From Branchiostoma floridae (Eukaryota > Chordata > Leptocardii > Amphioxiformes > Branchiostomatidae): a stretch of 64,000 nucleotides of DNA. The notes beneath the pieces are model-generated. The model searched no databases and was not told the origin of the DNA. It saw nothing but the letters and a program-made list of their open reading frames with translations. Made by a program: the position numbers and the translations under genes. Below, in pieces: positions 8,004-45,641 of the stretch (position 1 is the first letter of the stretch; the number at the start of each line of letters is the position of its first letter). The stretch lies in NCBI RefSeq assembly GCF_000003815.2, contig NC_049997.1, forward strand, positions 10,409,860-10,473,859, written 5' to 3'.

Positions 8004-8072
8004 GCCATGCCCACATGTAGCAGCAGCACGACGTGTTCCAAGGACCAGTTCTGTCTGCGGGGGTCATGTCAG
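8004..8072 (+). CDS. Gene P exon P1, short cysteine module
   Basis: Twenty-three codons between a TTTTCCAG acceptor and a GTAATC donor. Residues include CSSSTTC, then QFC and GSCQ, giving C-x5-C-x5-C-x4-C. It is the first exon I can support; it has no leader sequence, so at least one exon is missing upstream. Confidence 0.75.
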
Positions 8073-11000
8073 GTAATCAGGAACACTCGTCTGGTTATCA
8101 GGCGATGTGTTATCTTTCTGCTTGTCTGATCAAGGAGAAAGTCTGATACTAGTGCTTGCTGAGATTTGTTAAAGATGGTCTCAAGTGTTGGGAAGCCATT
8201 TTTCAATATATAATTGGGCATACGATGTTGCATGTTTGGCGCAAGTCAAGAACTATTTTGCAATTGCCTCCGTCCATGAAAAAAAACAAACAATTAATGC
8301 CCTCGACTATTCTTTTTACATCTTGTGTAGTTTGGTGTCTTTTATGTCGTACTTTCCGTTCCTGAAAGCTGCCCGGCCGGGCCCCGGTTTGGAATGTGCC
8401 TAATTCGAATGGTGGTAATTGGGGCACCGATGCGGCACTGTGGGGTTCGTTCAGTGCGGCATTATTGTGTTATTTTTGACGATTTTTGTATAATTCAAAT
8501 ATTGCGTAATACGCAAACTATGACTGAAAAGACAAAAAAATACAAAAAACGTAAGAAAATTCGTTCGTTATCTCTGAAATTCGTTGAGTCATCTACGAAC
8601 ACCCGTGTTGGTGCCCCAAGTGCAGTGAGATACCACCTTAACGCATAATTCTTAAGGCCCCCTCTCACTTGACGTGCGGCACGCTTGCGGCATTGCTGCG
8701 TTCGGAAGATGCTCAACGAATTTCAGAGATAAAGAACGAATTTTCTTACTTGTTGTATATTTTGTCGTCTTTTATGTTATACTTTTACGTATTGCGCAAT
8801 ATCTGAATCATAAAAAATCGAAGAAAATAACAAAACAGTGACGCAGTGAACGAACGCAGCAATGCCGCAAGCGTGCCGCGCGTCAAGTGAGAGGGGGCCT
8901 TAACGCCTCTCTCCTCTCCTCTCTTCCTGGTGACGTCAGACGATGCCGTGCGACAAAGACAGGGACTGCAAGTACCTGGACATGGGGGTGGAGGCGACCT
9001 GTGACACCAGCTCTCCACAAGGGGACAGCGCCGGGCACTGCGTACAGATGAGCAGTGAAGTTGTACGTAATAGATTCCCAGAGTTCTCACCAGGCCTGAT
9101 TTTTCACAGCATAGGGGTATCCGGTACCGCAGAGCCACGTGGTACACAATATATTATGAGCATTTTCAGGGGTCTGGGGGGAATCCTCCTAAAAATGTTT
9201 TAATTTTAACTCCATGAAACACTGTTACCTGCATTTTGAGGGCCAAATATAGGGAAAAATAGCAATTTATATTTTACCTTTGTTACAAAACTACTAGTTG
9301 AAACACAGCATAGGGACCCAAATCGCAGCATATGCTGAAAAAGGCCTGGCGAAAACAAAGATGAGCAGTGACGTTGTACGTAATAGAATTCACTTTATTG
9401 TTTATTAGCCTGATTAAATCTCGCTTATAGCAGCCCGCCCGACATCCGCCGGTCTCCTAAAAGCGTCTGCGGGGAGGGGCCAGTTACAGTACCGGACAGC
9501 AGAGTTTGTGTTACATAGATTAATTGTTTATAACCAGATCATTGACGTCTGTTTTTGGCGACGTCTCAGGGGCGAGCCAAATGGAATAGTATTGTGTTCA
9601 GTCTGCAAAAGTTCTAGAAATTGTACAGGAATGTGTCCACGGGAATGCTGGTCTATAGGAATGTTTGGAATTCCAAGCGGAACACCAAAATAGATAAAAC
9701 AATCACACCATAAAAGCAAGTGGGAGGTTACTGTGGTGTGGTTGTAGAGATGTTGTGCTGTAATGACCTGAACTGCTGTGTTTAGATACACCATGGCTGG
9801 AAATAGCTTACCGTCTATAGTATCTTTCACGGCGATGAAAATAAATAGCGATGTTAAGGATAGATATATAATGAAGTTCAGCACAGTGCAATGGTGATGA
9901 TGATGATGGCAATGTGGCCTATAACAATACGTTTTTCCCATTACAGAAGACATCGCCACCGGGTCCTGTTCCATCCTCGGTGTCGTACCCGTCATCTTAT
10001 CCGTCCCCGTACCCATCGCCTTACCCGTCCCCGTACCCATCGCCTTACCCGTATCCGTACCCATCCCCATCGCCGTCGCCAGTACCCTCACCCGTGTCAT
10101 ATCCGTCCCCATATCCATACCCTTCCCCGTCGCCAGTGTCCTCACCAGTGCCGTATCCGTATCCGTCACCAGTGTCCTCGCCGGTGTCGTATCCGTCCCC
10201 GGTGCCCTCCCCGGTGTCGTATCCGTCCCCGTATCCATACCCTTCACCGTCACCAGTGCCCTCGCCGGTCTCGTATCCATCCCCGTATCCATATCCTTCC
10301 CCGTCGCCCTCGCCGGTGTCGTATCCGTCCCCGTATCCGTATCCTTCCCCGTCGCCAGTGTCGTATCCGTCACCAGTGCCGTCACCAGTGTCGTATCCGT
10401 ATCCTTCCCCGTCGCCAGTGCCGTATCCGTATCCGTCGCCATCACCAGTGGTGTCACCGGTGTCGTATCCGTATCCAGTGCCATCACCTAGTACTTCGGT
10501 AAGTATACTAAGTAGTTGTATAACAGATCGCCATAGTGGTAGCAGTGGCCGAAAAAGGATGATCATAGTTTTATAAGATCACGTGCTGTGAGTAGTGGGT
10601 TATTCTACCAGAAGAAGGTGAAACACGCACAAGAGGAAAGTCTACAGTGTTAGGCCTTTCTGAGACATCTGGGTGTCTTTTGCCAGCACAAATGCATTTT
10701 AGACCTACATGTATAGGGCCACAGGAAGAATACCAAACTAATAGTGGATCTTACTTGTCAACGTTAAAACTAAGGGCAAAATCAACGATGTTGTCAAAAC
10801 CAGTGACATTCAACGTTGCTGACATCTTATTATGTTTTTTTCAATCCCTCTTCAGGTAGGGAACACGGTGTACTGTAAGACCAGCGCGGAGTGTTCGTCC
10901 GGCACATCTTGTATCACCGCATACCATCTAGAGAGCACACCGCTCACGTACGGCTTCTGCGGGACGGGAAGAAGTCAGAATCCATACCCTTATCCGGCCC

Positions 11001-14000
11001 CTGCACCGCAGCCTGTACCAGCCCCAGCACCGTACCCCTACCCGTATCCTTCCCCGGTACCTTCCCCGGTCCCTGCACCGTATCCCTACCCGTACCCGTC
11101 CCCGGTACCGTCTCCTGTCCCAGCACCGGCACCGTACCCCTACCCGTATCCATCTCCAGTCCCTTCGCCGGTCCCGTCACCTTACCCCTACCCCTACCCG
11201 TCCCCGGTCCCAGCACCAGTGCCCGCCCCAGCACCGTACCCGTACCCATCACCAGTTCCTGCGCCGGCACCTTCGGTACGTACCCTTTGTATGCTAGTAG
11301 AAGCCGCTTAATTGCACACCCCATCTGCCAGCGTATTTCGTGCAATTATCCGCATGATGCAATAATGTGAAATTATCTAGCCAGACCCCCCTGGTTTGGG
11401 ATTTGGGGATTCTGTGCAGTTAACAGAACTGTGCGGTAATTCGCTGTGCAATTAACTGGCTTCTACTGTAGTTAGTCATATATCCTTCAAGGTACAGTAG
11501 AAGCCAGTTAATTACACAACGGATTAAAGCACACTTCTGTTAATTTCATGGAATGCCAAAATCCCAACCGGTGCTGTCTAGCTGGATAATTTCGCATTGT
11601 TGCACCATCCAGATAATTGCACGAAATACGCTGGGAAATGGGTTGTGCAATTAAAGGGCTTCTACTGTATTTCCATTGGGGAAATGTTTTCTTGCATTAT
11701 CTAGCACAAGGTAGAAGTTTCATTTCTCAGTTCTCTCAGGATGACTAAATCTTGACTAAATCATCACTATGACGGAATCTGTTCATCTTGTTTTCAGCAA
11801 TGTTACAGCGATTCTGATTGCTCATCAGAAATGTACTGCGCCGGAGGAGCTTGTTACCCCATGCTGGCTCCTGTTACAGTACCAATCTCTTCTCCAGCTT
11901 CTTACCCTAGCTCGCTGCTGGTAGGTCCGCTGGTATAAAGGTCCTATGAATGCCTATAAACAGAAAAGAAAGACGTTTTACTCTTTCGAAGCTGCTGGCT
12001 GTAACATAGGATAGTCATCATGCATGTACCCCAAGCATGACCCCCCGCTGCAGACGCTTGACCTACGGACGAACACTTGACGTCACACGTCTTGTGGTCT
12101 TTTCCAACGCAATGTGATGACGTCAGAGAACGCAATATTCTGACGTTGAACTTATCACGTCACACGCCTTTTGGTTTTCTAGTGGAGATGCACTTTACGG
12201 GATTTTTTCTCCAACTACTGCTTGGACACAGCAATCGCAGCATTTTACATATAGGTCATTGTCAAAGAACATGCAACATGCTTGGTACAAAACAATGTAC
12301 GGCAAGTTCTGTTCATTGTTGAAGTCACGGTTAGATGCATTTTGACTTACTTTTTACTTACAGAATGAATGGGTGGATCAGTTATATTGCGATTGTCATC
12401 ATCATCTGGGATGAACCAGTAACCTGATACATCATCATCGTTACTCTAAGCATTGCCACCAATGTTCGGGACAAAATCAAAACTTACCACCTCTCATTCG
12501 TAGCCTTGGTGCTCACCCGCTAACCCATGTGCACCCGGAAGTACCTGCATCGGTGGGAGGTGTGTACCGCACGGGGGACCGGTACCGGTAGGCCCGGTGA
12601 GTTCTTCCACTACAGGGCAGGCAACGATGAGCTTATTCTCTTGGGGAAGCACAGCTTCTCTGCTGAACACTGTTCGATGACATCAACCTTTGCTGCCTCT
12701 GCTTCTAGTGCAGTGTGTTCTTCTAGTCCTATGTACTTTCGAAAGTTCTGTTAAATGGCTACTGTATTCGTCTTTGCCATGCATGTGGGTTCCTGACATT
12801 GTCATTGGTCTTCAACCTACTTCAGTAGTTTGTAGGTATGTCGGACGGGGATTCTCGATTCTTCAAAAGTGCTGTTTGTCCACTCAGCTGCCTGTAGCCT
12901 TTTCTTTCAGCAATACATCAAAATATGATCAAGCACCTGCTCCCTATTCTTTTCTTCACTCGTGCTTGGCTGCTGTTAAGGAATCGCACGACTTGACTAG
13001 TCATGCAAGAACGTTCCGTCAGTTCTACCTGCTATCTAGAAGAATAGCTGTACCATGCTTAGTTTCAGTACAAAAATCTACTCAGTACATGACGACATTT
13101 GTAAAGAAGTTGTAAAATGATCCGCATATACTTACTTTCTTATCGTCGATATAACCTCGGCAGAACCATGGCACAGTGTTTAACATTGGAATGTTTCCTC
13201 CATAGCCTCAGCCTCAGTGTTCATCCTATAACCCGTGCCCACCCGGGGGTATGTGTGTAGGCGGGAACTGTGTTCCTCTAGTGCCGGTAAGTGTGAAACA
13301 GCAAGGGTGAAAACACGAAGCTAGCTGACGGCTTCTCCATCAAAGACATTGCTTTTGTTTGCTTTTTAATTTCACTAGCTTGTCTCCACTCCTTAGCTGA
13401 AATACCTCACGTACACATTTTCCTTGGTCGTCAATAGATTGTTAACTGTTATAGTTTTTTGGCATCATTTATATCTCGCAAGCGTTACATGTCAGCATTG
13501 TACTGGTCAGCAAAGCTTCTCAGCAGTGCTTGTGACCGGTGGCTGAAATGTAGCAACGAACATAAAGCAACATCCATGATGATTTACTTGCTTTGTGTTC
13601 AAGTCGCGTAAGTGGCATGGCACTGTCGCTGATTGATGAAGCTTCAAACTCCAATTGTTAAGAAATTCCCGGCTGTTCGATCCGATATTGACTTGATGAA
13701 ATACCTTTGTAGCCTCAGATGTTACTTCCTCATTACTGGACTTCAAGTGTTTACTTGGTTCTAATTGAACGTATTGCCATGCTGTAATTTATACTCTGAT
13801 GATGACATCTCCTTCATAGCCATCTGAATGCACACCGTACCGTCCGTGCTCAGTCGGAAGTACCTGCATCGGTGGGAGGTGCGTACCGCACGGTGGGCCG
13901 GTACCGGTAGGCCCGGTGAGTTCTTTCACTACAGGGCAGGCAACGATGAGCTTATTCTCTTGGAAAAGCACAGCTTCTCTGCTGAACACTCTCCAATGGC

Positions 14001-17000
14001 GTCAACCTTTGCTGCCTCTGCTTCTAGTGCGGTATTTTTCTTGTCCTCTGCATATTCGAGAGCTCCGTTAAATGACCTTCTTTCTCACGGGTTCCTGGAG
14101 TTAGTTTTGGTTGTCAACGTGGTTTTGGTTGGTGTGAAGCTGTATAGGACAAAGATTACATATAGCTCATTTCTGCAAACATGCTGTTTTTATCCATTCT
14201 GCTTTATAGCATTTTCTTTCCGAAACACATAAATATAATAATTACAGTCACGAATAGCCGTTATCTACTCAGTACTCACCGACATTTGTAAAGAAGCTGT
14301 AAGATGATCCGCATACAACATCTGAATACTTTCTTATCGTCGATATAAGCTCGGTAGAACCATGGCACAGTGTTTAACATGGGAATGTTTCCTCCGTAGC
14401 CTCAGCCTCAGTGTTCATCCTATAACCCGTGCCCACCCGGGGGTATGTGTGTAGGCGGGAACTGTGTTCCTCTAGTGCCGGTAAGTGTGAAACAGCAAGG
14501 GTGAAAACACGAAGCAAGCTGACGGCTTCTCTAGCTCTGCCAAAGACATTGCTTCTTTGCTGAACTCAGCACCGGCCTGATAAATTCTATAGATTATGTC
14601 CCACTTCCTTACAGGTACACCTGACGTTCTATTAGCTTACCTGGTCGTCGATAGTTTACAGTCGTTGACACGTTGTTTGGTATCAATTCTTGCTTGCAAC
14701 TGTTACAAGTCTTCGGCTTTATTGGCCATCAGAGCAACCCGGCAGTGCTAGTAATCGGTTGGTGAAATGTAGCAACGAACATAAAGCAACATCGATACAC
14801 AGAAGATTCGTCTCTTTGCTTGCTTTGTTTTCAAGTAGCCTCAGTGGCAATGTCGTTGATTGGTGAAACTTCGTACACTCAGACTAAGAATCAGGCTATA
14901 TGACTGCTGCTATTTGCTGCGACATTGACTTGATGAATTGCTTTTATGGATATGAACCACATATGTTGAGCCTTTTAACACTTCCTCATTATTGGACTTG
15001 ACAAAGTTGGTTCTACTTGGAAGTATTTTCATGATGCAATATATACTCTGATGATGACATCTCCCCCATAGCCATCTGAATGCACACCGTACCGTCCGTG
15101 CTCAGCCGGAAGTACCTGCATCGGGGGGAGGTGCGTACCGCATGGGGGACCGGTACCGGTAGGCCCGGTAGGCCCGGTAAGTTACCGTACAGATCCAGAA
15201 CGATGGACGAACTGACAACTTCGCTGGCCGACAAAGGCATGGCTTTTCAGCTGAACCATAGATCGCTTGACCTTGTATCCCCCGCTTATATTGGGAAGCC
15301 TCGCTGTTCTCTACATTCAACAGTACCACAAGTATGGCCTTGCCACCATTCGCTGCGAAACTGCCTTCGGGCTTAAACTCCCCGGAGCGCTAATATGAGA
15401 TCGGCGGGTTGACTGCCTTGGGCCCCCGAACAAAACTCGCTAGCTGCCTGATCCCGGCTGGCCCCCAGGGTAAGGCAACAGAAACATATCGGAAAGTTGG
15501 TCATCTGTTATATGTATGTTTCACACAGGAGAATCTTAGCCTTCTCAGGCGCCTGAGATCCTGCTTTCCGAATACATGCGTGTGGTAAGTCGACATAATT
15601 GAGCGGAAAAATACTCTAACTTTCGTAAAAGCATCGCCACTACTGGAACAAAATAAACGCTACCTTTCCGACGTCTGTCTTCCACTGCTATTATACGTTT
15701 TCCCTAGGAGTGCTACCTTTTTTGCATCGATACATGAAACTAGATGGCTTTTCGCTATGTCAGCAATCCGGACGAGCAGACAACTTTGCTGGCCGACAAA
15801 GGCATGGCTTTCATGCTGAACCCTACGCCGCTTAACCGTGTATCCCCCCATGTTCTTCGTTTATACTTCAATTACAGTAACACTATGGTTCAATTCTTTG
15901 CATGATGATGATCATGTGAAATTAAAGAATACTTCAAGAACTTCATTATGAGGAAGAATCGTGTCATTGTCGATGGTTTACTTCTAAAATTAGAGTTTTC
16001 AACAATCGTTTCCACAGGTATTGGGAGTGAGGGGAGTTTTGTTGATCTACTTTTCAATTTGAACTTATCATGCACAGATGTTGCTATATTATTTTTTCTC
16101 GTCGTTAAACCAATGCTGGAAAAATTGTCTTGAAAATAAAGGAGGTAAGACCTTGACCGACGGACTAACGTCCAACTTGATAACACGACATGTTTGACTC
16201 CTATCCAGACGACATGTACAGATAGTTCACAGTGCGGGTCTGGTCAGTCCTGTAGCCAGGGTAAATGTGTGTCGTCACCAGCGCCGGCACCTTCGTCGGT
16301 GAGTTTCCGGATAGGGCGTTAACGGCACAAGTGCTTGCTTTGCTGCTTGCATCTAAATGGCATACTACCGGCAGACCTCAGCCGCACGTAATCTTCAAGC
16401 AGATCATGCTGTGGCACAAGATAGTATCATAAGCTTGGGGTGGAGTTTAGCCGGCAGAGGAGTTTCATTGACCACAGCTACTCTGGCGGCTAAACTCTTT
16501 CCCAAGCTTATGATACTATCTTATGCCACAGCAAGACCTGCTTGGAGATTAAGCTGCACGCACACGCAGGGCTTGCTCACACACGTGGCTTTGATCGTGG
16601 AACCTGGCGGTAGGGGTAAGGCCCTACCCGACAATACGACGTAATATTTTCACCTCCTGCGGCATTGTGACGACATGCACAAGGCGACGATGCTACACTG
16701 TAGTTGTCAAACTCTGCGTAGACTTTAGGTCCACGTTTGTGCTATAGAATGCTTCTTTAACAAGCAATCTGCACTTGCACTAACGCATGTAACCACTGGC
16801 GTTTAATCATGTAGTTCTACAACCCAATTTTATGTAAAAGATGATAATGATGAAATGTCCATGTTTTGGCAGAGTTACTGTTCATCTGATGCCGAATGCG
16901 GGTCCGGATATCGCTGTGAGAGGCCAGCCGGAGGCTCCTACGGCTACTGCGTCGGCGCAAGTGACTATACATACTACAAGGCCGGGAAGGGGGAGTTCCC

Positions 17001-18299: not shown

Positions 18300-18399
18300 N
18301 NNNNNNNNNNNNNNNNNNNNNNNNNNNNNNNNNNNNNNNNNNNNNNNNNNNNNNNNNNNNNNNNNNNNNNNNNNNNNNNNNNNNNNNNNNNNNNNNNNN
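18300..18399. other. Assembly gap (100 N)
   Basis: Exactly 100 N, a typical placeholder length, so the true distance is unknown. The flanks are intergenic. Confidence 0.95.
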
Positions 18400-18807
18400 A
18401 CGAACGTGAACATGAACCAGAAATACGTTTTACAGAAATGATCAAGTACCGTTTTCAGTATCTTCTCGAGAGGTGGGGTACCGGGCAACTCCGGGACGCC
18501 CGTTCGGTGGGACGGCCGAGACTGACGACAGGTAACTCTGACGTATCAGGCGGGTGTGTCAAAGGTCAGATTTGAACGCTTCCATTGTAGCGAGGGGAAA
18601 GAATGGCATTATGTCGTAGGCTATGTAAGAAAGAAACAGCCCTCTCTGTTTACTGGAGGCAATTTAGTGTGTATTTATTAAACATTTCATGAAAATGGTT
18701 TCCTATGTCCCTACCAAAACACCATAATAGCCACGTTCATGCGATTTCTGTTACCAATGGTTCAGGCCAAGTGTGACCTATGACACGACTGAACCTCACC
18801 GACCAGA
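18400..18807. other. No gene recognised
   Basis: Unassigned DNA between the gap and the mariner copy; no splice-supported exon or repeat arm was noticed. Confidence 0.4.
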
Positions 18808-19390: not shown

Positions 19391-19408
19391 GATGGCAGAA
19401 TTCCCTGA

Positions 19409-22467: not shown

Positions 22468-22575
22468 AATAATTGCCAACCTGATGAAGTTATTTACGAA
22501 TCATGAAAGACGTGTAAACAATTGTTACAGCACCGCAGCTTGTTGACACGGAAATGTGTGACGTCATCTGTGACG

Positions 22576-22668
22576 TCACTGCTTGCACCACCCTTTGAAG
22601 TAGTCCTCCTCCATGTGACACCTGGCGTTATACTGCTGGCAGTCCGACTCGGCGTAGCAGTCACGTCC
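22576..22668 (-). CDS. Gene M last exon M25, module and stop
   Basis: Thirty residues then TGA. RDCYAESDC starts the module, C-x6-C and C-x10-C (FKGWC) follow, and the protein ends only two residues later (KQ). The acceptor CCTGTCTAG follows a pyrimidine-rich tract. Confidence 0.9.
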   Translation of the reverse strand, partial: GRDCYAESDCQQYNARCHMEEDYFKGWCKQ

Positions 22669-36800: not shown

Positions 36801-39800
36801 CTGCGGTGTGACAGTTGTCGGTAACGTAAGGAACGAATCCACTCTACTTAACACGTGTATGGTGAAATGTCGTTATACACAAACATAGAACCATGTGGCT
36901 ATACCCCATTAATACAGTGATGTTTGTTTTAAATTACCATCTTCGTGACAGGTAACTTAATTACACACGATATCTAAAGTCTAGATCTGTGGTGTTTTAC
37001 AACATACAATGATATGAAAGGGTGACAAAGTATTAGATGTTGAATATACCTGACCACTCCACCCTTCCGCCATGTTTGTTAGATAGAATGTAGATTAGAA
37101 ACGTTAGTAACTCTGTGTGTGAGTACAATATGGGATGAGGTGTTATTTTGGTTATGGGGGGTGTTATTATGGTTAGTAGTGGTTGATTGGTGGAATTAGT
37201 GAGTGACTGAACGAATGATGATGGGGCAAATGACTGGATAGATAAGAAAGGGAACAGTTACACAAGTGACTGCATAGATTTTGGAACGGTCAGATTTTGG
37301 AACGGTCAAACGTTACCGGTAGCTACCTTTCATCGGTTGCTGGACAAGAGACTTTTAAACAAGAACTTTGAATTGATACGTAAATGATGCGGAGACAAAT
37401 TTTACACAGTCTATCAATTGTTCATGCGTGATAGTGCTATTCCATTCAAAATTGGACCAATGACGATTCTAAAAGGACGTTGACGGGAAAACTACCTTAG
37501 GCATTTGCTCCTCAACGCCAACCATACTTACTATATTGTTTGCATGTAACGCCTTCTTTCGTCCGTTTCATACGACTTCCTACTTACTCGTGCGGTGCAG
37601 CAATTGGAGATCCCTAATTGTGGGCTAACCATCCCATTTACGAACAGCCTACCCTGATATTTGCTTGGACAGTGTGTCAATAAGTTACCCAGTAGTCCCA
37701 TCCCCTCTCACCAAGTTCTAAATGTAAAAGTTCTGAACTGTGCCTCTTGAAACTCTGTGTAGACAAATAACTTCATTCGAGTTATGAATGAATGTATGAA
37801 TCTCAAAGTTTGGTATATGACAGCATCTTCCAAGTCTAATTCAACAAATACCCGTAAGCTTCCACACCTCCTACATACTACTGCTGTTCGCACAGCGGCC
37901 CATGGAATCCTGTAGAACACAGTCAGCTGCTGCGTTGTGGCTCAAGCCTAATGAAAAATCACAGTCTCTCACAAATCAGCATGAATTAAGAGGTGCTCGG
38001 CAACTAGGCTGTCACTGAAATGCACTTATTTCTAAGTGCGACGTAGCAAAAATGTATGTGATTATGCTGACACTATGTACTCTTTTTCAAAAACATAAAA
38101 AAGCCAGAAACTGTCCATACAACCCAATGCGTATATTCTCTATCAAAAACATTTAAAAAAAACTCTCCATACAACCCAATGCGTATACTCTCTATCAAAA
38201 GCCAGAAACCGTCCATACAACCCAAAGCGTGCGGCAAAACTGCCAAGCACCAGCGATCGAGCCCTACCCTTCCTCGTATGTCAATCTCAATCTCCCGGTT
38301 CCCCAACAGACATTCCCCGAACCCTTTGGCCAGATCGACTCGGCAGATGTGCCCAGCTTTACATTCTTTATCCACGAAGCAAAAACCTGCCTGCAGATGA
38401 GAAAATTCCGGCTAGAATTACGATAAATCGTAAAAATGTTCGCGGTGGCTTTATTTTCGCGTTGGTCTCTTACGCCTAGATCGTAACACCGCTTGTTTTC
38501 CACCGCGAAATATCATTTTACTTCCTATCGCGAAATGAAACCACCGCGAAAATAAATGAATTTACAGCAAATAGAGTGTCGGCATTTGCAGTGATGACAC
38601 CAATTTTCTAATGCTACAATTATCAATGGATGGAAATGCTCTGCAATTTGTAGCTGGTAAATTCTTTTTTTTTACCTCTTTCATACGGTCGTTCTGTACT
38701 CATTACTACAGGATAAAGGGTTGGCAGTAAGACATGGTTTAGTAGAGGTTAGAAATCAACTTTACGGTAAAGAAATGTTAGATGAAAGTAGCGGGGTTAA
38801 ACATGGAAACATACACGCAGAATTGTCCCCATCATGCACTAATATATATAAGAAGAATTCGAGCGACATCCGAATTGCTAATATAGTTAGTCGTTATTTA
38901 TGCAGTAGCAACGTCTGTCTTTTAGTCATACATCATCTTTTCAGATCATATTGGTGCACATTGCATGTAACATATAGTTATACTGGACGTCTTACCTTCA
39001 TCCAGCAATTCTATCGTAGAATTCCACTAAATAAGTACTTTAGATAACAAAGTCCTTCCTTCACATGTTGCAATTTTGATGCAGACCAAACAGAAGGGCA
39101 TATGTTTAAAACATTGTTTCATCAAAGTCATTGGACAGACTGTTGTCACTTAGGAGAAGGCCATGATACTGTCATTGTCAATGTCAATGTTTAAGACGTC
39201 TCAGTGTTTTCTCGTGACATTGTGTTCCGTACCTTGTCAGGCGTCTGGTCCGGCGTGATCTCATTGGTTCCTCCGGCGCCTGCGCACATGCCGCCCTTCT
39301 CCGTCATCTCACACTTCACTCCTGGGTCACAGTCGGAGTCGGCGTAGCAGAACATGTTTCCTCCCTGAAATACAAATAAACATTCGATACTCGTAGGTCA
39401 AGGAAGGGTAGACATCCAGATACACCAAATATCCGTTACTCAAGCAACTGGATATATAATTTTGGAAATGGTCATCTCACACTTCATGCCTCGGTCACAG
39501 TCGAACATGTTGCCTCCCTGAAGCACAAGCAGACATTTGCTCTGTGATTCAAATATCTACACAAAAAATAGCTATATAAAACTATGAAATCACGACTATG
39601 TCCAGAACACGAGGTGCCAAAGTTCCTATGCGGTACCTTAGAAAGCCACCAGAGGGCCCGCTATCGAACGTCACTTTCCCAAGCCATACCCGGCTTACCA
39701 AATATCATAAGGATCCATATACAGCCTCTCGAGTCATACTGTCCATAGACACACAGAAACACAAATGGCACCGAAGACATAACCCTCTTGGCAAAGGGAA

Positions 39801-42800
39801 CTACGGGTTCTTACCTTCAAGCCAGTAGTCGACAAACCTTCTATTTGTTACCTCCAATGTAAAATATGTTCACGTTACTAGAATACCCTACAAGAATCCA
39901 TAGTTTTTCCTGTAGATTTTCTTTACTTTTTCATGTGGAAGGTATGAAATTCACGGAAATAGTGGGCCATAAGTACAAGGACAGAATACAACTCCGTACA
40001 CATACACTGCATATCATGTTTTACACATAAATGTTAATTACTTTGAACAAGACTATATCGTACCATACTCACGTCTGGCTGTGCCTTGCCGTCTTCAATA
40101 CAGATCCCGTACACACCGTTAGGGGAGAGTTTGCACCTGAAGCCAGCTCCGCACATGGGGTCGTCATAACAGTAGACCGGCTGGGGGAAATGAAATAATT
40201 ACGTTTATCGAAACATACCGTCATGTCATATGTCTCAAAGTCACAATCTTTGATAAAAGCTTGTTACTTTAGTTTTTTTTTAACAACATGTATTCGTATA
40301 TACTGTGGTATCTGGACTGCCTTCTACCAGAGTCAGTGTACTTAGAGACTGTCAGACACGTCTTGTTCCTTCAACTACATCCTGCTGCGTGTATTGTTGA
40401 AGGACACATCAACAGTACTGTGTACGTGATTGTTGTAGGCAGATGATATCCAGTATGGGTAAGTATGCTTAAGGTCATTACACCTACCTCTCCCCGTCTG
40501 CTGCCCCGAACACATTCTCCTACAGTCCTGCCGTCTGGTTCCATCCTCAGGACACAGTAGCTGTTCACTCCACAGTCCGGGTCTTGTTTACACGGGATGC
40601 CCTGAAAAACAAGCGTTATGTGTTTACATTGTGCTGTGCAATATCAAACGAAACCATTAGTGTAAAATTTGTTTGTCCCAGAGGCATCGCCAAACACTCT
40701 AGTCATGCGCAAAGAGCATCACGCCTCAGTCAGGGTCTTATTTCGGGATTCCCTGAAAACAAGAGTTTTTTTTTTACTTTGTACTTTGCAATATCAAGCG
40801 AAACCATTAGTGCAAAATTTGCTTGTCCCAGAGGCATCGCCAAACACTCTAGTCATGCGCAAAGAGCACCACGCCTCATGATCAGTCAAAGTCTTGCTTG
40901 CACAGAATACCCTGAGGACAAGCGTTAAGTTTACCTTGTGCTATACAATAACGTGGACAATAGTGCACCATTTGGCTCGCCGCAGAGGCGTCGCCAAAAA
41001 ATGTTTAGCCATGTGTAAAATCACGCCTCATGTTTACCGTGTGTTCTGCAATAGTGTACAGTGTACATCGTTTGACTCGCCTCTTTGGCGTCGCCAAAAA
41101 TGTCAGCCAGCAAGGGAATGCAAGGGAATCAAAATTTGTGTTTGAGGAGACCTACGTACCAATCACGTTACCACCGTACTCATCAAAAAGATTTAGGGTC
41201 CAACTCGGTGCGAGTGGATCAACTTTACAGTCGCCATCGGTACATAGGCTACAGAATCTTCAGCAAGTTGAAGCTGGTAGTTATGGTAGTCTCAAAAGAA
41301 CAAGAAGAGTCTAAGAGCTGAGTACATGGATTAACTCCTTAGGCCCCCCTTTCACTAGACGGCGATCGCGCTGCGCTCTCTCTGCGACTAAAGCTGATGT
41401 GTGCAACCTTCGATTCCGTACTAGGTACATCATAAAAACTGTGAAAGTGTGACTGAAAGGACGACAAAACATACAAATCGTAAAAATATTCGTTTTCATT
41501 TCTATACAATTCGTTGAGCTATCTGTCAAATTTTAGGTCGCAGAGAGAGCGTGGCAGTAGCGCCGTTCTAGTGGAAAGGGGGTATTACCGTGTACTGGCC
41601 ATCCGGTGCAGGTTGGCCTCGGTCAGGCTTTACAGGCTCCTGAGGTTCCGATGGGACGACGTACGGCGGAGGGTCCCGACAGATGCCGAGCTCCAGCTCA
41701 GGGTCGTGTTTGTCACAGTACCTCCCGCCGGGACAGTCGATGTCCTTGTAGCACACCGTGATCTGGAGAAGAAAGTAAATTGTCCAGAAGTTTGTTGTTT
41801 CATCTTTTCATCTGTTAAGATAGTTATGGACCTTCATAAAATAATCTTTATTGACACGACAAGAGTACAGCGACTTTCGTATGGTCTACATGTATAACAA
41901 CTACTTACAGTACAACTAAACACACATATATGTATGAATACATCAACATATAGGGTCTAGCATGTCATTTACACTATTGGTTCTACATATACTTCCTATT
42001 TCAAACTACATTTAAGGTATCTAAAAATCTTTATTGCAGAAAAGAGGTATTTTTGAACCTGCTCCAATCGGTACACTAGCCAAGTGAGTGGAGTGTTCGC
42101 TTTCAGTTTGATCCACGACCGAGTCATATCTAATACTTAAAAATGGTTTCTTTGCTTAGCACTCGAAATTTGGGAAGAGTATGAACACTAGCCACATGCT
42201 GCAGTTATTGTACAAAGTTGTGAGGTCCAACGGCTAATGAAATAGAGATTGGCGCCGCCCTATGTACCATCTTAAACTTAAACCTGAATCTGTCTAATTC
42301 TCCGAGCAGAGGTTGAGTCGCGGAGATAGCAGTAGTTGGGATTCTTACTGAGGGAAACGAGCCAATAAAAATCCCAACCACTTCTACTACAGTAGAAGCC
42401 AGTTAATTGCACAACTGCACACTTCTGTTAATTGCACGGGATCCCAAAGTCCTGTAGTCATGCGGTCCAGCGGAATAGCTTCGCTTTGTTGCACCATCTG
42501 GATCATTGCACAAATTGTGCTGACAAATGGGGAGCGCAATTAAACGGCTTCTACTGTATCTCCAAGACCCAACCTCTGCTTGGAGAACAAATCTGTCTTA
42601 CCCCTCCGTGTAACTGTCGATGTTGCCGTTTTCGGCACATCCCGTTTCCGTCCGGTCCGGCTGTCATGTCGCAGAAGTACGACGTCTCGCACATCGAGTC
42701 GCGATTGCAGAGGACGCTCTGTAGAACACATCAACCATAAATCATCGCTTTTCAAGTTATAACCTGACTTAACAGACTCCCTTCGGGAGCATGCAGAGCT

Positions 42801-45641
42801 AAGTGAGTGAGTAACAGTCTGGCAGAAGGGGCACAACTGCAAAAGTCACAGTTAACCCCCAAATTTGACAAAACTAAAGAACCTCACCAAGGAAATGGAT
42901 AAAGTACATTGCAAAGCATTCTGGTTGTCATGCATCTTAACACATCAATTAATGTATTACATCCTGACAAAGTTCTTTCTTTCTTTTTCTTCCACCTGAC
43001 AAAAACCACCTGCTCTTCACGACGAATCACGTCAAGGTGAAACGAAATCGTGATGGTACCAGTTCTGACCACAATGCACCGCGCCAAACGTCACTGATGA
43101 CGTCATGACACAAGGAGGAAAATGGAAGAATGGATGGATGACGGTACCATCACCTCGTTAGTTTAAAGTTGTTTGGAAACATGCTGTTAGTAATGGACGA
43201 ATGTTTTAGAAACATGCTGTTAGTAATGGGCGAATGTTTCACATCAGGAAAACCCCTGAAGAGCAAAGACAGGAGACGAGCGATTCGAGGGGCTTATTAT
43301 CAGGTATCTATCATAGCTACCTCTGGAGGCTTGGATCCTTTTGCGCATGCCCCTCTGGGCGTTCTAACACCGACGGATTCTGCAAAGTCACAGAAGCTTC
43401 CTTCTTTGCAATCATCCTGCTTATAGCAGTCCAGGCCCTGGGCAACGCAAACGAGAGAGGGATGCTTCATACTTGTCCATTTGTGAATCTTTTATCTCTA
43501 TTTAGATATCGTTGTCACTGACTTTATAACCAAAAGCCCTGTGCTAAGGAAGTTGACACAAGGTTTATTTTGCGGTTCACACGAAGAAAAAAGTTCTTCA
43601 CATAACCAGTGATCAGCTGGAAAAAAGTTAACATAAAGCATTGAAATCAAACTTAAAACAAACATATAGGTTTTGTTTGTAAAAGTGTAGCAAAAGCGAT
43701 CGAACCTCAGACTGAGGACAAAGCATATGCGCATGACGCTTTTTTTGTTAGCTAGTAGTGCAATGCTGCTTTATTTTACTGTTCGCGTGTTGTATATAGG
43801 AGCAGAATTCTGGGTTGTTTTAATGATACTTACCAGGCACATGCCTTTCGCGCCCGGCTCAGCAAAGAAGCAGTATTCGAAATTTGGGCATTCTTGATTG
43901 GAGCCGCACTCGACCTTGGTTCCTATGAGACCATTCTGTAAGGACAGAGCAAGATTATGTCAGGTTGGACAAGGTAGTTCCTTGCAATCAAAATCTTTCG
44001 TGGACATACACTTGTTAAACTGTTGCTGTGAGATAAGGTACACGTAAGATAATGTTAGCTAATTAGGTTGGACAAGGCAGATTCATGATATTAAAAATCT
44101 TTCGTGGACACGTATATTAAGCTATGGGATAAGTTATATTCTAAAACATGGAAGTACTAATCTCTAAGCAGATCTTGCGTGGCATAAGATAGTATCATAA
44201 GCTGTGGAAGAAGTTTAGTTGACAGAGGAGTTAATTGGCCACGGCTAAACTCCTTTCCCAGCTTATGATACTATCTTATGCCACGCAATATCTGCTTGGA
44301 GATTAGGAAGTACAACGTCAAAGGATGATGCACAGTACTTTCAAGTATAGTTATCTTTGTCCAGCATTACAAAGTCAGAGCCCTTCTTGGTCGATCATGT
44401 CTTCAGGGACATGCAGCCATAACACTTGTGATAATTGACACCATTAGCCCATATATTTCGTGTATTACCGTATATATGTCAGGATACATTAGATTGAATG
44501 ACCCAAATATTACTTCTGAAAATAGTTTCATCAGGTTGGTAGAATATTGGATATAGGAGAATTCTTTTTACACCAGAGGTACTTACAATGCTTAAGTTTC
44601 TTACGTTTCTGAGAGACATCGAAATGTAAGCAATGTAAGTACCTCTGGTTGCAATTGTGTAAAAAGAATTCTCCTATATCCCAGTTATTACTATTGGAAA
44701 CATACCGCGCTCGGTTGGGGTCGTGTAGCGTACGTAACTGTAGAGCATTTGGCTCAGAAGCCAAATCTAGAGGGCATGGGTTTAAATCCTGGCATGCTAC
44801 CGATCTCGGGAGGTACTTTGCACAACTTTTCTCATCCCACCCAGGGGTAAAAAGGGGCAATTGACTTCGGTTGGGGAGGTAAAGGGCGGTGGAAGAAAAG
44901 GGCTAGGATGAGCTCCGCCTCCCAAAACGGTGCCTTAGATACAGTAGATAACATCCCACTGTCTCTATCTACCCTCTGTCTGTCCTTCACAGGTGGTACT
45001 GTTATAATAAGTTACTAACTCGAGTACAGTGCTATATTGTCCTCGTTTGTCTTAAAGTAAGTGACCGTGAAGCTGTCTTGTAAATCTTGGGTCATATTTG
45101 CCCATAGTTAGTACATTTTACGCGGCTCAAGGAGATGTAGACTAATTCGAAGCCAACCGTCTTTATTTCTCCAGTAAACGTTTCAAGAAGGCCGTGTAAA
45201 GGTGGGGTCGCACATGCGTATATATTCAAGTCCGTTTTAGGTGCGTATGAAGCTCTTAGTCTCTACCAGGCTCCACAGGTCGCGAGGAAAATAGTACAAA
45301 TTGGATGAATATAGATACATAACATGCAAGATGAGTTAGCTGACCGAGAAGTATGGTAAGCGACCCAGCTAACTCGTCTGACATGTTACCTGTTTACGTT
45401 TGTCCAATTTCTATGATTTTTCCAACGACCTGTGGAGCCTGGTGGAGGCAAATACTCCCATGCGCGCCTCATACGGACTTAAATATATACGCAGGTGTAA
45501 ACCCACCTTTACGAAGGAGACTTTGTTCAATGGATCTACCAACCTGATGAAACTATTTACGGAGATAAAGATTACCCTTACCCCGTATGGAACAGCCTGT
45601 AGCACCAGGGACAGCATCAGCAAACAGAGACTGGACGTCAT
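22576..45641 (-). CDS. Gene M: secreted protein of about 23 cysteine modules
   Basis: Twenty-four complete exons (M1-M10, M12-M25) give 964 codons in one phase-0 frame from ATG at 45641 to TGA at 22576; exon M11 runs into a gap. M1 is a 20-residue signal peptide; each later exon holds one module, C-x5-C-x(4-6)-C-x(8-14)-C, usually starting C-Y-x-D-x-D-C and ending G-x-G-x-C. Linkers of 1-30 residues vary, three being Pro-Gln repeats. The protein is predicted to be secreted and stiffened by disulphides; no transmembrane segment or enzymatic motif is seen. The module spacing resembles the first half of Dickkopf N-terminal domains, but family and role are unknown. Gene P is its convergent relative. 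Confidence 0.85.
23182..23322 (-). CDS. Gene M exon M24, six-cysteine module
   Basis: Forty-seven codons. An N-terminal extension with an extra cysteine (TGCAISLSELEG) precedes ECNVYDDC, AYEYC, then FDIC and KGYC. Two additional cysteines could pair with each other. Acceptor TTTCGCAG, donor GTAAGT. The PxxEYC-F stretch is close to M2. Confidence 0.9.
23376..23710 (+). mobile_element. tRNA-derived SINE-like copy, interrupted
   Basis: A B-box-like GTTTGAGTTCC near 23428 follows GACTAGCGGATA. The 3' part (CACTGCCC-like CTACTGCCCCTACGGCCT at about 23670) matches the elements at 44700-45062 and 59290-59666. A block of TTGTTGCGAA-type repeats (23520-23590) interrupts it. Confidence 0.6.
23889..24053 (-). 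CDS. Gene M exon M23, module with Pro-Gln repeat
   Basis: Fifty-five codons: ICYQDRDC, then a shortened C-x4-C (NGGRC) and a ten-residue loop ending FGVC. An uninterrupted run of about ten Pro-Gln pairs follows, ending VPQ. Acceptor GTTGTACAG, donor GTGAGT. The repeat DNA (GGTTGCGGCTGTGGTTG-type) is prone to slippage. Confidence 0.9.
24565..24672 (-). CDS. Gene M exon M22, module
   Basis: Thirty-six codons: PKYCYLNSHC, GNFC, and a ten-residue loop ending TYGVC, with linker RRGPFPTDV. Acceptor CATTCCAG, donor GTCAGT. Confidence 0.9.
25028..25114 (-). CDS. Gene M exon M21, compact module
   Basis: Twenty-nine codons, the shortest full module exon here apart from M25-type ends: VFYCNRDEDC, IGVC, a loop ending YGTC, and only two linker residues. 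Acceptor TTTTGATAG, donor GTAAGA. Confidence 0.85.
25552..25662 (-). CDS. Gene M exon M20, module
   Basis: Thirty-seven codons: IQFCTEDRDC, DHFC, and a twelve-residue loop ending VAGIC, with linker KRGTRAGP. Acceptor CCCTGTAG, donor GTAATA. Confidence 0.9.
25700..25920. repeat. Degenerate GATGAT/ATGATT low-complexity tract
   Basis: Imperfect repeats of GATGAT, GATAAG and ATGATTAT in intron M19-M20. No coding signal. Confidence 0.7.
26065..26193 (-). CDS. Gene M exon M19, module with Gly/Pro linker
   Basis: Forty-three codons: SCMNDRDC, GNYC, and a thirteen-residue loop ending VGTC, then RPGQRPTGPGG. Acceptor CCCCTAG, donor GTGAAA (weaker than the others). Confidence 0.85.
26674..26796 (-). 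CDS. Gene M exon M18, module
   Basis: Forty-one codons: PKYCLEERDC, GYTC, and a loop ending LGYGEC, with linker EPGNIRPQPPQPDP, a short Pro-Gln tract. Acceptor TTCCCCAG, donor GTAGGA. Confidence 0.9.
26825..27015 (+). mobile_element. LINE 3' tail fragment
   Basis: A plus-strand frame ends LCFQKRSQTQPV and stop, matching the FHCFQKRNQTPNA end of the 5740-6397 LINE. TAGCCCTCGGGCACGATC and TTGCAAATAAACTTC then match that element's 3' UTR. It sits 28 bases from exon M18, antisense to gene M. Confidence 0.8.
27303..27461 (-). CDS. Gene M exon M17, module with Pro-Gln repeat
   Basis: Fifty-three codons: SCASDADC, GTMC, and a ten-residue loop ending GYGQC, then VQPPPGGIV and about eight Gln-Pro pairs ending GP. 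Acceptor TTACTCAG, donor GTAAGT. Confidence 0.9.
27462..28039. repeat. Intron M16-M17 with (GT)n microsatellite
   Basis: A pure GT run occupies about 27777-27822, preceded by imperfect GT/CGTA repeats. The following sequence (CAGCATAACTTTTGGACC...) has no recognised function. A long His/Thr frame across the run is an artefact. Confidence 0.9.
28040..28232. mobile_element. MITE, TTCGCGGTGG family, copy 1
   Basis: Ends TACTGTAAATG and CATTTACAGTA enclose repeated arms ATGTTCGCGGTGG and CCACCGCGAAC. A related element lies at 38422-38567. Its end is 16 bases beyond the M16 donor. Confidence 0.85.
28250..28378 (-). CDS. Gene M exon M16, module
   Basis: Forty-three codons: GCVNDASC, GEYC, and a ten-residue loop ending TGAGTC, then an eighteen-residue linker ending PTPE. 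Acceptor ACTTGCAG, donor GTATGT. Confidence 0.9.
28902..29015 (-). CDS. Gene M exon M15, module
   Basis: Thirty-eight codons: PCYSDDDC, GRLC, and a Gly-rich loop ending GRGTC, then a polar linker (VDGVPQHGG...). One of the closest exons to the consensus. Acceptor CTCCTGCAG, donor GTAGTA. Confidence 0.9.
29673..29786 (-). CDS. Gene M exon M14, module
   Basis: Thirty-eight codons: QYCYRPEEC, GFYC, and a loop ending GFGTC, with linker RQGSGERQPAS. Acceptor CATTACAG, donor GTAAGC. Confidence 0.9.
30070..31155 (-). mobile_element. Non-LTR retrotransposon, reverse transcriptase part
   Basis: A 353-codon minus-strand frame (31152 to 30091) carries the RT landmarks GVKQGSVLSPILF and FGYADDIC, then YLGSV, LLYGCESW and RWLGHVERM, ending in GRPRKRWRDN. 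The endonuclease and first RT blocks are missing (5' truncation at about 31155). The 3' end has an AGATGTAAG-type short tandem tail at 30070-30095. The frame is intact over this span, so the insertion may be recent. It lies in intron M13-M14. Confidence 0.9.
31156..31325 (-). mobile_element. Second LINE fragment (C-terminal zinc-knuckle)
   Basis: One minus-strand frame reads QRFCPFCPEHIEDEFHF, then C-S-G-Y, the C-terminal motif seen in the 5740-6397 LINE but from a different lineage. It begins a few bases after the M13 donor and stops where the RT fragment begins, so the two lie next to each other or are nested. Confidence 0.75.
31328..31432 (-). CDS. Gene M exon M13, module
   Basis: Thirty-five codons: FCYNDPDC, GQYC, and a nine-residue loop ending GVGTC, then RSGNPPAPAPA. 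Acceptor CATTACAG, donor GTAAGT directly followed by LINE sequence. Confidence 0.9.
31854..32012 (-). CDS. Gene M exon M12, module with Pro-Gln/Val repeat
   Basis: Fifty-three codons: QQQFCYSDNEC, GRYC, and a loop ending GYGVC, then PQPQPVPVQPQ and further Gln-Pro pairs ending SG. Acceptor TTTACAG, donor GTAGGT. Confidence 0.9.
32741..35042 (-). CDS. Thr-rich/basic long exon (nested gene or alternative end)
   Basis: An open frame runs from a possible acceptor (TTTCGACAG, 35043-35051) to TGA at 32741, broken by a 143-N gap. An in-frame TAG lies just upstream of that acceptor and no early ATG exists, so it should be an internal-start, terminal exon. The first ~130 residues are very basic (RRGRQQANRR, KQRKRKRF). 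After the gap the protein is Thr/Asn-rich with many N-x-T/S sequons and imperfect repeats of YLPRNTTAYQ. Then comes a Lys/Arg/Pro-rich part and a C-terminus with FNTSIHLD. It may be a mucin-like extracellular protein. No domain is recognised. Confidence 0.55.
34497..34639. other. Assembly gap (143 N) inside the Thr-rich frame
   Basis: The frame is open to within a codon of the gap on one side (a TGA abuts its low edge on the minus strand) and fully open on the other, so continuity of the exon across it is likely but unproven. Confidence 0.95.
35083..35593. other. Assembly gap (511 N) hiding most of exon M11
   Basis: The gap separates the beginning of exon M11 from the Thr-rich exon. The 3' part of M11, its donor and possibly more exons are missing. 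Confidence 0.95.
35594..35617 (-). CDS. Gene M exon M11, partial, cut by gap
   Basis: After the acceptor CATTGTTGCAG, eight codons read QVDEVCYR and then the gap begins. The phase and the C-Y start match other module exons such as M12 and M23, so this is very likely another module. Confidence 0.7.
36088..36314. mobile_element. MITE, CTCTACCAGGCTCC family, copy 1
   Basis: Ends GCCTCTACCAGGCTCC and GGAGCCTGGTAGAGGC are inverted. Inner arms TTGGCCAAGC and GCTTGGCCAA also pair. A second copy is at 45258-45450. It ends 40 bases from exon M10. Confidence 0.85.
36355..36465 (-). CDS. Gene M exon M10, module
   Basis: Thirty-seven codons: PNFCYSNDDC, ERYC, and a loop ending GYGTC, with linker RLGPRGPVAVP. 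Acceptor CACCACCAG, donor GTAAAA. Confidence 0.9.
36466..38267. other. Intron M9-M10 (1.8 kb), no exon recognised
   Basis: A CCGAGGGACCACTGCGGTG stretch at 36790 resembles TGAGGGACAACTGCGGTGC on the opposite strand near 36585, a weak inverted pair. Nothing else was identified. Confidence 0.4.
38268..38390 (-). CDS. Gene M exon M9, module with acidic linker
   Basis: Forty-one codons: GFCFVDKEC, GHIC, and a loop ending GFGEC, then LLGNREIEIDIRGR, a charged linker unlike the Pro-rich ones. Acceptor ATCTGCAG, donor GTAGGG. Confidence 0.9.
38422..38567. mobile_element. MITE, TTCGCGGTGG family, copy 2
   Basis: Arms AAAATGTTCGCGGTGG and CCACCGCGAAAATAAAT are inverted, with an internal TTTCCACCGCGAAATATC. 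It starts about 30 bases upstream of the M9 acceptor, within the zone where the branch point is expected. Confidence 0.75.
38568..39232. other. Intron M8-M9, no exon recognised
   Basis: AT-rich sequence with no further module exon or clear repeat. Confidence 0.4.
39233..39364 (-). CDS. Gene M exon M8, module
   Basis: Forty-four codons: MFCYADSDC, GVKC, and the shortest last loop of the gene (eight residues, KGGMC), then AGAGGTNEITPDQTPDK. Acceptor ATTTCAG, donor GTACGG. A decayed partial copy lies upstream at 39471-39522. Confidence 0.9.
39471..39522 (-). pseudogene. Decayed partial copy of exon M8
   Basis: On the minus strand TTCAG-GGAGGC-AACATGTTC is followed by GACTGTGACC and a sequence matching M8 up to the Glu-Met-Thr codons. 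Fifteen bases are deleted (five codons including the first cysteine), and the second half of the exon and the donor are absent, so it is not expected to be a working module. Confidence 0.75.
40073..40180 (-). CDS. Gene M exon M7, module
   Basis: Thirty-six codons: VYCYDDPMC, GFRC, and a loop ending VYGIC, with linker IEDGKAQPD. Acceptor TCCCCCAG, donor GTGAGT. Confidence 0.9.
40488..40601 (-). CDS. Gene M exon M6, module
   Basis: Thirty-eight codons: IPCKQDPDC, NSYC, and a thirteen-residue loop ending VGEC, with linker VRGSRRGE. Acceptor TTTTTCAG, donor GTAGGT. Its first bases and acceptor are part of the tandem array upstream. Confidence 0.9.
40586..41105. repeat. Tandem array with exon M6 acceptor fragments
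   Basis: Units of about 150 bases each contain CCCTGAAAACAAG-like (the M6 acceptor in reverse), TTTGCAATATCAAGCGAAAC, GGCATCGCCAAACACTCTAG and CATGCGCAAAGAGCA. Two are clear (40590-40735 and 40736-40890), followed by more diverged units (40891-41105). Only the first is joined to a complete exon. Confidence 0.8.
41341..41587. mobile_element. MITE, GGCCCCCTTTCACTAGACG family, copy at M5 donor
   Basis: Ends TTAGGCCCCCCTTTCACTAG and CTAGTGGAAAGGGGGTATTA. Subterminal GATCGCGCTGCGCTC and GCAGAGAGAGCG match the copies at 47486 and 56908. The right end touches the M5 splice donor. Confidence 0.85.
41589..41762 (-). CDS. Gene M exon M5, module with long Pro linker
   Basis: Fifty-eight codons, the longest exon in gene M: VCYKDIDC, GRYC, and an eleven-residue loop ending LGIC, then thirty linker residues rich in Pro, Glu and Asp (PPPYVVPSEPQEPVK...). 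Acceptor TTCTCCAG, donor GTAATA, of which only the first bases precede the MITE end. Confidence 0.9.
41763..42296. other. Intron M4-M5, unassigned part
   Basis: AT-rich, with no exon or clear repeat recognised apart from the nested MITEs that follow. Confidence 0.4.
42297..42587. mobile_element. Nested MITE pair
   Basis: The outer element has CTCCGAGCAGAGGTTGAG and CCCAACCTCTGCTTGGAGA ends (CTCTCCAAGCAGAGG family). Inserted within it at 42389-42558 is an AGTAGAAGCC-family element with ends ACAGTAGAAGCCAGTTAATT and AAACGGCTTCTACTGT. The outer right end is 14 bases from the M4 donor. Confidence 0.85.
42602..42718 (-). CDS. Gene M exon M4, module with basic linker
   Basis: Thirty-nine codons: VLCNRDSMC, SYFC, and a loop ending NGMC, then RKRQHRQLHGG, a strongly basic linker that could be a proprotein-type cleavage site. 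Acceptor TTCTACAG, donor GTAAGA. Confidence 0.9.
42719..43320. other. Intron M3-M4, no exon recognised
   Basis: Contains a short direct repeat, AAACATGCTGTTAGTAATGG, twice at about 43177 and 43211. No coding signal. Confidence 0.5.
43321..43437 (-). CDS. Gene M exon M3, module
   Basis: Thirty-nine codons: LDCYKQDDC, GSFC, and a fourteen-residue loop (the longest in gene M) ending RGAC, with linker AKGSKPPE. Acceptor GTTGCCCAG, donor GTAGCT. Confidence 0.85.
43834..43935 (-). CDS. Gene M exon M2, first module
   Basis: Thirty-four codons: VECGSNQEC, FEYC, and a ten-residue loop ending KGMC with one linker residue. It opens with NGLIGTK, which follows the signal-peptide exon directly. Acceptor CCTTACAG, donor GTAAGT. 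Confidence 0.9.
44157..44306. mobile_element. MITE, AATCTCCAAGCAGAT subfamily, copy 2
   Basis: Arms GCATAAGATAGTATCATAAG and CTTATGATACTATCTTATGC pair over 20 bases, with outer ends TAATCTCTAAGCAGAT and CTGCTTGGAGATTA. In intron M1-M2. Confidence 0.9.
44549..44682. repeat. Long palindrome (hairpin element)
   Basis: GGATATAGGAGAATTCTTTT pairs with AAAAGAATTCTCCTATATCC, continued by CCAGAGGTACTTACA and its complement TGTAAGTACCTCTGG. Only a short centre is unpaired. Probably a MITE. Confidence 0.85.
44700..45062 (+). mobile_element. tRNA-derived SINE
   Basis: The 5' part carries a B-box-like GGTTTAAATCC (about 44779) after TAGAGCATTTGGCTCAGAAG, as in a tRNA-derived head. The body (TTGACTTCGGTTGGGGAGGT, CACTGTC) and the tail (TTGTCTTAAAGTAAG) match 59290-59666. 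Confidence 0.75.
45258..45450. mobile_element. MITE, CTCTACCAGGCTCC family, copy 2
   Basis: Ends TCTCTACCAGGCTCCACAGG and CCTGTGGAGCCTGGTGGAGG, with an inner pair GAGTTAGCTG and CAGCTAACTC. In intron M1-M2, 130 bases from exon M1. Confidence 0.85.
45582..45641 (-). CDS. Gene M first coding exon M1, signal peptide
   Basis: Twenty codons from ATG: a short polar start (MTSS) and a hydrophobic core (LCLLMLSLVLQA), then VPYG and a GTAAGG donor. It is a typical secretory leader with likely cleavage near LQA. This ATG is the first in the frame; upstream in-frame codons lack another ATG nearby. Confidence 0.9.

Follow-up and report, generated by a model that had tools for sequence, protein, structure and literature searches.

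The stretch of DNA analysed here (the window) comprises 64,000 nucleotides of contig NC_049997.1 of the lancelet Branchiostoma floridae (forward-strand positions 10,409,860 to 10,473,859; locus G000:C19:10409860-10473859) and contains two genes, termed M and P, built from small cysteine-rich modules that each occupy an exon of their own; coordinates are those of the window throughout, with negative values lying to its left (Table 1). Gene M was reconstructed from the DNA as 24 predicted exons on the minus strand (45641 to 22579), in which an exon with the ATG and a signal-like peptide is followed by 22 internal module exons and a terminal module exon with the stop codon, yielding a predicted product of 964 amino acids. 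Gene P is convergent to M, on the plus strand, with 12 predicted exons within the window (8004-17073), the last ending in a stop codon; eleven carry modules and the remaining one is a proline-rich spacer devoid of cysteine. Gene P probably starts outside the window, about 1.8 kb to the left, at a 60-nt signal-like exon at -1767 that ends in phase 0 and is the better of two candidates. External gene models comprise one partial model for M and none for P.

With 50 kb to the left of the window added, M and P are seen to belong to a cluster of four genes spanning 96 kb; the preliminary description of this DNA, which recognised two convergent genes, was accurate as to their orientation but not as to the extent of the family, which includes genes Q and I. 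In gene Q (plus strand, -49873 to -33485) a signal-like exon precedes seven module exons; every exon length is a multiple of three, and the layout of one module per exon is that of M and P. In gene I (minus strand) a signal-like exon of 30 residues at -24297 is followed by a single giant exon without introns, lying within a 1139-codon stop-to-stop frame (-26069 to -29485; L003:515-3931) and holding 18 modules by pattern count. By eye, several modules in the second half of gene I have an extra C-x2-C start and one more cysteine after the module. An isolated four-cysteine pattern upstream of the first exon of gene I (-22663 to -22607, minus strand, L003) is either a chance match or an exon relic, and pattern scans of the rest of the window and of 20 kb to its right revealed no further convincing module.

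Phase 0 is kept at every join between the 36 exons of M and P, whose lengths are all multiples of three, and the motif C-x5-C is common to 34 of 34 modules (23 in M, 11 in P); both regularities had been pointed out in the preliminary description and were recovered when the genes were rebuilt from the DNA. The uniform phase of these predicted joins does not stem from a requirement for phase 0, because it also emerges when every GT and AG around the 34 module exons, which are all exons of the two genes but M exon 1 and the cysteine-free exon of P, is scored in any phase with hand-entered splice-site weights: the best-scoring acceptor is in phase 0 for all 34 exons and the best donor for 30 of 32, the exceptions being two donors, after 28902 and after 9062, at which the called site is outscored by one other. 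At P exons B1 and B2 the called acceptor is likewise second, to a site that is also in phase 0. The window holds 16 four-cysteine open segments with scored phase-0 flanking sites, as against a mean of 0.01 and a maximum of 1 in 100 first-order Markov resamples.

Duplication of exons together with their introns can be read directly from gene P, where blocks 1.2-1.3 kb apart are 98% (B1/B2), 90% (A1/A2) and 91% (A2/A3) identical, with two more blocks at the same spacing that are 82% and 89% identical. Of the exon shuffling and duplication proposed at first, module-per-exon duplication is thus supported by the blocks that are 90-98% identical over exons, whereas the profile searches of the genome described below, whose matches are lower bounds, gave no sign that modules had moved between unrelated genes. 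In gene M, a stretch before exon 6 occurs as two tandem copies of 123 nt, 91% identical at a spacing of 150 (40606..40878, minus strand), and the upstream copy is followed, by eye, by a degenerate exon-6-like start with stops. The third module of Q is closest to the third of M and the last of Q to the last of M; shared ends of the two genes are nevertheless only partly supported, because the closest counterparts of Q2 and Q7 are modules other than M2 and M23.

Profile searches of the genome (513,431,437 bases, 431 contigs), whose matches are lower bounds, located module copies in the cluster and in one two-module exon, besides weak matches and two Dkk genes, one at C3 and one at C10, in which frames resembling CRD1 and CRD2 can be recognised by eye (CRD, cysteine-rich domain). 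The two-module exon (C19:15346421; L008:4822-5169, minus strand) lies on the same contig as the cluster, at a distance of 5 Mb, appears by eye to be in phase 0 at both ends, and in each half beats shuffled sequences with one of two module hidden Markov models (HMMs). A genome search with a short pattern was uninformative, its 5494 forward and 5463 reverse matches being outnumbered by those of its control. All protein relatives found in databases, by searches that depend on five-residue words in common and on comparable length, are from Branchiostoma: P0002 (LOC144865801, B. floridae x B. japonicum, 1160 aa) is 99% identical to gene I over its full length, P0003 (Bbelb_154170, 1125 aa) is 74% identical to gene I by BLASTP, also over its full length, and P0001 (Bbelb_154110, 725 aa, B. 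belcheri) covers 60% of M at 66% identity. A further protein search returned no relative of P or of the 5' half of M, an outcome for which limits on length and the sampling of words may be responsible. The near-consecutive numbers Bbelb_154110 and Bbelb_154170 suggest that gene order is conserved in B. belcheri. At every aligned position the cysteines are identical to those of B. belcheri, both in M exons 11-24 (52 of 52) and in I (78 of 78; I has 84 in all), with an identity of 0.89 (M) and 0.87 (I) for the other aligned residues, a difference that fits selection on a disulfide fold.

The module had at first been held to match no domain that could be named with confidence. Two Pfam families nevertheless match above their curated cut-offs: Dickkopf_N (PF04706; cut-off 25) matches gene M at 83.1 bits (1.7e-23, 10 stretches), gene I at 46.0 bits and gene P at 26.0 bits (1.1e-5), and DUF7107 (PF23416; cut-off 24.6), itself uncharacterised, matches P at 64.0 bits (1.5e-17) and M at 29.5 bits (9.8e-7), with I below the cut-off at 19.7 bits. 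When 12 of the 23 M modules were joined with their linkers trimmed, scores rose to 87.7 bits for Dickkopf_N and 59.8 bits for DUF7107, and of eight shuffles of the joined modules with cysteines held fixed, none of the five scanned matched anything up to E 10. A strong match to a characterised domain, which the preliminary description had named as evidence against its own proposal of an undescribed family, has accordingly been found, because these profiles exceed their cut-offs and the shuffles do not. No published description was found of the way these units are arranged, as unattached half-domains in long arrays with an exon each, beside a one-exon paralog; the domain class was already known and can be named. 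Among the matches listed, the open-access literature yielded no paper on the cluster genes, on DUF7107 or on arrays of single Dickkopf subdomains. The EB module (PF01683) was rejected, gene P scoring 21.9 bits against a cut-off of 24.3, and a PDB sequence search with 863 residues of M gave no match up to E 1.

The modules are not complete Dickkopf_N domains, which have ten cysteines, five disulfides and two subdomains: they contain four cysteines as a rule, without a vicinal pair in the listed modules, and no ten-cysteine domain occurs in the sequences, including the ten-cysteine colipase fold of prokineticins and colipase. No other Dkk-type Pfam profile matches M, P or I up to E 1, in a scan that had no positive control. 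In the account given in PMC6078440, CRD1 of Dkk4 (PDB 5O57) comprises two subdomains, with conserved disulfides C41-C53 and C47-C63 in the first and C73-C85 and C79-C90 in the second, that superpose at 1.2 Å; the residue numbers reported there correspond to spacings of C-x5-C-x5-C-x9-C and C-x5-C-x5-C-x4-C. The first spacing fits the modules here called M-type, whose last loop is 8-14 residues in 22 of 23 M modules and 10-17 in 16 of 18 I modules, and the second the P-type, with a last loop of 4 in eight of the ten P modules counted; the earlier remark that the closest spacing is that of the Dickkopf N-terminal domain is supported. Two single M exons align to positions 1-26 and 2-25 of the Dickkopf_N profile and the best P match to positions 32-51; the best stretch of whole M (profile positions 2-46), however, runs across two successive M-type modules, so that the profile does not cleanly separate the halves. 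In gene I an M-type module, ten residues and a short-loop (x5) module occur in succession, with the best Pfam match covering both modules. AlphaFold models of the first 37 residues of M exon 11 and of the P exon at 16209-16298 show knottin-core folds with a predicted hairpin, the P-type model superposing on EETI-II at 0.8 Å over 23 residues; Dkk4 CRD1 entries are not among the matches listed for the models, in listings that cannot exclude Dkk4 CRD1. Pairing of cysteines I-III and II-IV would follow by analogy with EETI-II and Dkk4, and the module would then be a cystine-stabilised beta-hairpin with two disulfides, equivalent to a single subdomain, and so to half, of the Dickkopf CRD1/colipase fold.

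The disulfide-directed hairpin (DDH) fold follows the pattern C-x5-19-C-x2-[GP]-x2-C-x6-19-C. Its central element, C-x2-[GP]-x2-C, is found in 14 of 23 M, nine of 18 I and eight of ten counted P modules, with the last loop in eight of the ten P modules shorter, at 4, than the DDH minimum of 6. Four cysteines and a predicted hairpin are likewise shared with the DDH peptides U1-LITX-Lw1a of scorpion and KASH2 of sea star, although the single-domain DDHs presented in PMC11891777 are small single peptides, unlike the 7-23 modules in tandem in the cluster genes. That such a unit can fold by itself is indicated by Min-23, a trimmed two-disulfide form of EETI-II described in PMC6259850. The first cysteine of EETI-II and its disulfide are absent from the P-type module. 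The inhibitory loop of EETI-II lies in the part before the aligned stretch, and a role as protease inhibitors was rejected, that part of EETI-II, and the loop with it, being missing from the module. It is likely that the modules are half-Dickkopf or DDH-like units.

These units may descend from the same ancestor as Dkk, but several results weigh against such descent. With cysteine-fixed shuffles as controls, only one of four HMM tests (M and P models on the lancelet CRD1 at C3 and C10) succeeded: the M model scored 11.5 on C10, above all 200 shuffles (top 8.0), but 10.9 on C3, where it was exceeded by 4 of 200 (top 16.8), and the P model, built from six rows, remained below the best shuffle on both (6.2 versus 8.1 on C3, 7.0 versus 15.3 on C10), such that the module HMMs mostly detected nothing beyond cysteine spacing in the CRD1 and CRD2 of lancelet Dkk. 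Pairwise, the best z among the 23 M modules was only 2.5 for C3. Separate origins of C-x5-C-x5-C hairpins, in line with the convergence argued for sea-star DDH in PMC11891777, would account for these results and constitute a substantial, if less probable, alternative, under which the modules would lie outside the Dkk/colipase lineage. Convergence is at odds, however, with the loss of the Pfam match in the cysteine-fixed shuffles, with a best z among 23 of 5.2 for C10, and with the way in which both lancelet Dkk CRD1 exons open, in phase 0 and two residues ahead of the first cysteine, by eye much like the module exons, although these CRD1 exons end in phase 1.

A narrower uncertainty concerns gene M, in which a large threonine-rich open frame, basic and with 583 scanned residues that match no Pfam family, lies between exons 10 and 11 and may, judging from sequence, be a further exon of M. 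By eye it holds several N-glycosylation sequons. M could instead be two genes, exons 1-10 being one and the threonine-rich exon with exons 11-24 the other, or the threonine-rich frame could belong to an unrelated nested gene: the B. belcheri model P0001 starts within the threonine-rich part and joins it to exon 11, and a second open frame upstream of it, between two assembly gaps in the exon 10-11 intron, reaches approximately 35042 with a possible phase-0 acceptor there. That M exons 3 and 24 both pair with the single gene Q argues against two genes, as does the lack of a stop or terminal exon noticed after exon 10 and of a signal exon before the threonine-rich frame, neither of which was searched for systematically; a division of M is thus considered somewhat improbable.

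Among other elements, a reverse-transcriptase fragment (Pfam RVT_1, 44.9 bits) occupies 30094-31179 on the minus strand, in an intron of M, and two very similar repeats of about 1 kb, recognised by eye in opposite orientation (~3270-4380, plus; 19750-20790, minus), flank the P exons. Between the exons of Q lie two open frames of about 420 codons (L001/L002), one at -40865 to -39618 (minus), ankyrin-like by eye, and the other at -44557 to -43295 (plus). No RNA families or tRNAs were detected in the window.

Table 1. Predicted exons of genes M and P and the threonine-rich open frame, in window coordinates.
Feature	Position	Strand	Description
M exon 1	45582..45641	-	Signal-like peptide MTSSLCLLMLSLVLQAVPYG, 20 residues, phase 0 end
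M exon 2	43834..43935	-	Four-cysteine module, 102 nt; Q exon 2 equally long
M exon 3	43321..43437	-	Module; best match of Q exon 3
M exon 4	42602..42718	-	Module
M exon 5	41589..41762	-	Module + linker
M exon 6	40488..40601	-	Module
M exon 7	40073..40180	-	Module
M exon 8	39233..39364	-	Module
M exon 9	38268..38390	-	Module
M exon 10	36355..36465	-	Module
Threonine-rich open frame	32744..34492	-	Between M exons 10 and 11; exon of M or separate gene
M exon 11	31854..32012	-	Module + PQ linker; first 37 residues used for AlphaFold model
M exon 12	31328..31432	-	Module
M exon 13	29673..29786	-	Module
M exon 14	28902..29015	-	Module; called donor rank 2/13
M exon 15	28250..28378	-	Module
M exon 16	27303..27461	-	Module + PQ linker
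M exon 17	26674..26796	-	Module
M exon 18	26065..26193	-	Module
M exon 19	25552..25662	-	Module
M exon 20	25028..25114	-	Module
M exon 21	24565..24672	-	Module
M exon 22	23889..24053	-	Module + PQ linker
M exon 23	23182..23322	-	Module, extra cysteine
M exon 24	22579..22668	-	Terminal module + stop; best match of last Q module
P exon (first module in window)	8004..8072	+	P-type, C-x5-C-x5-C-x4-C
P exon	8940..9062	+	Long-loop module; called donor rank 2/12
P exon	9947..10498	+	Ser/Tyr/Pro-rich spacer, cysteine-free
P exon	10856..11275	+	Module + Pro-rich spacer
P exon	11798..11920	+	P-type module
P exon A1	12504..12596	+	P-type module
P exon B1	13206..13286	+	P-type module; duplicate of 14400-14480
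P exon A2	13820..13915	+	P-type module
P exon B2	14400..14480	+	P-type module
P exon A3	15072..15176	+	P-type module
P exon	16209..16298	+	P-type module; used for AlphaFold model
P terminal exon	16873..17073	+	M-type module, then acidic tail, then stop

In each of the four proteins the sequence encoded by the first exon is hydrophobic and signal-like, and no 19-residue Kyte-Doolittle window above 1.4, as a membrane anchor would give, occurs after residue 35 in any of them; the proteins are apparently secreted. M, P and I have an acidic pI of 4.7-4.9, Q one of 8.6. N-glycosylation sequons number none in M, P and I (964, 697 and 1160 residues, without the threonine-rich frame) and one in Q, which seems few for secreted proteins. 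The cluster is probably best understood as lancelet arrays of half-Dickkopf modules that have spread by exon duplication and that would serve as multivalent extracellular scaffolds. Each module found in M, P and Q sits in its own phase 0-0 exon, and duplication of exon plus intron would therefore add a bead with the frame kept; proline-rich linkers would space the rigid disulfide beads, the variable loop between the third and fourth cysteines (4 to 17 residues) would bind ligands, and the proteins would be soluble or matrix-bound. Taken by itself, the scaffold function is put forward tentatively.

Repeated disulfide units behind a signal-like exon could also denote polyprotein precursors cut into free knottin-like peptides, whether progranulin-like or acting in injury responses as exemplified by the sea-star single-unit DDH peptide KASH2 (PMC11891777), but this seems unlikely: dibasic pairs are few (six in M, which has 23 modules, none in P, three in Q, five in I), no R-x-[KR]-R site occurs in M, P, Q or I, and the proline-rich linkers resemble spacers. 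The granulin module has 12 cysteines. Progranulin, as described, resembles the cluster proteins in being a secreted chain of small cysteine-rich modules, and differs in the module itself and in its release by proteolysis, for which few candidate sites are available here. Multimeric Dickkopf relatives regulating the Wnt pathway through LRP5/6 or Kremen, suggested by the Dickkopf_N match, are very improbable and were discarded as the principal interpretation, since tight LRP6/Kremen binding is attributed to CRD2 in PMC6078440 and no CRD2 was seen, the LRP6 motif N-x-I-[RK] is absent from M, P, Q and I, modules have four rather than ten cysteines, and relatives were found only in Branchiostoma.

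As arrays of half-Dickkopf modules, the cluster genes recall Dickkopf CRD1 in subdomain spacings, profile score and the phase-0 start of its exon in two lancelet Dkk genes, and differ from it in their single subdomains, arranged in arrays of 7-23 and, except in gene I, each on its own exon. Dkk and colipase domains are suggested in PMC6078440 to stem from a one-subdomain ancestor, and PMC11891777 describes a hairpin with two disulfides as an ancestral fold to which the cystine knot is related; no chordate example of such single units in a long array came up in the literature and database searches made. It is conceivable, though speculative, that these proteins are living single-subdomain relatives of the Dickkopf/colipase ancestor of Patel et al. 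(2018), with M- and P-type modules being the N- and C-subdomains of CRD1 on separate phase-0 exons, Dkk CRD1 a fusion of one of each, and gene I showing the fused, intermediate arrangement. In resembling the one-unit ancestor proposed for Dickkopf proteins, the cluster proteins make both ideas, as set out in those two sources, testable with natural proteins, and the cluster provides a clear case in which phase-0 exon duplication is still visible in the DNA, beside a paralog with all of its modules in one exon.
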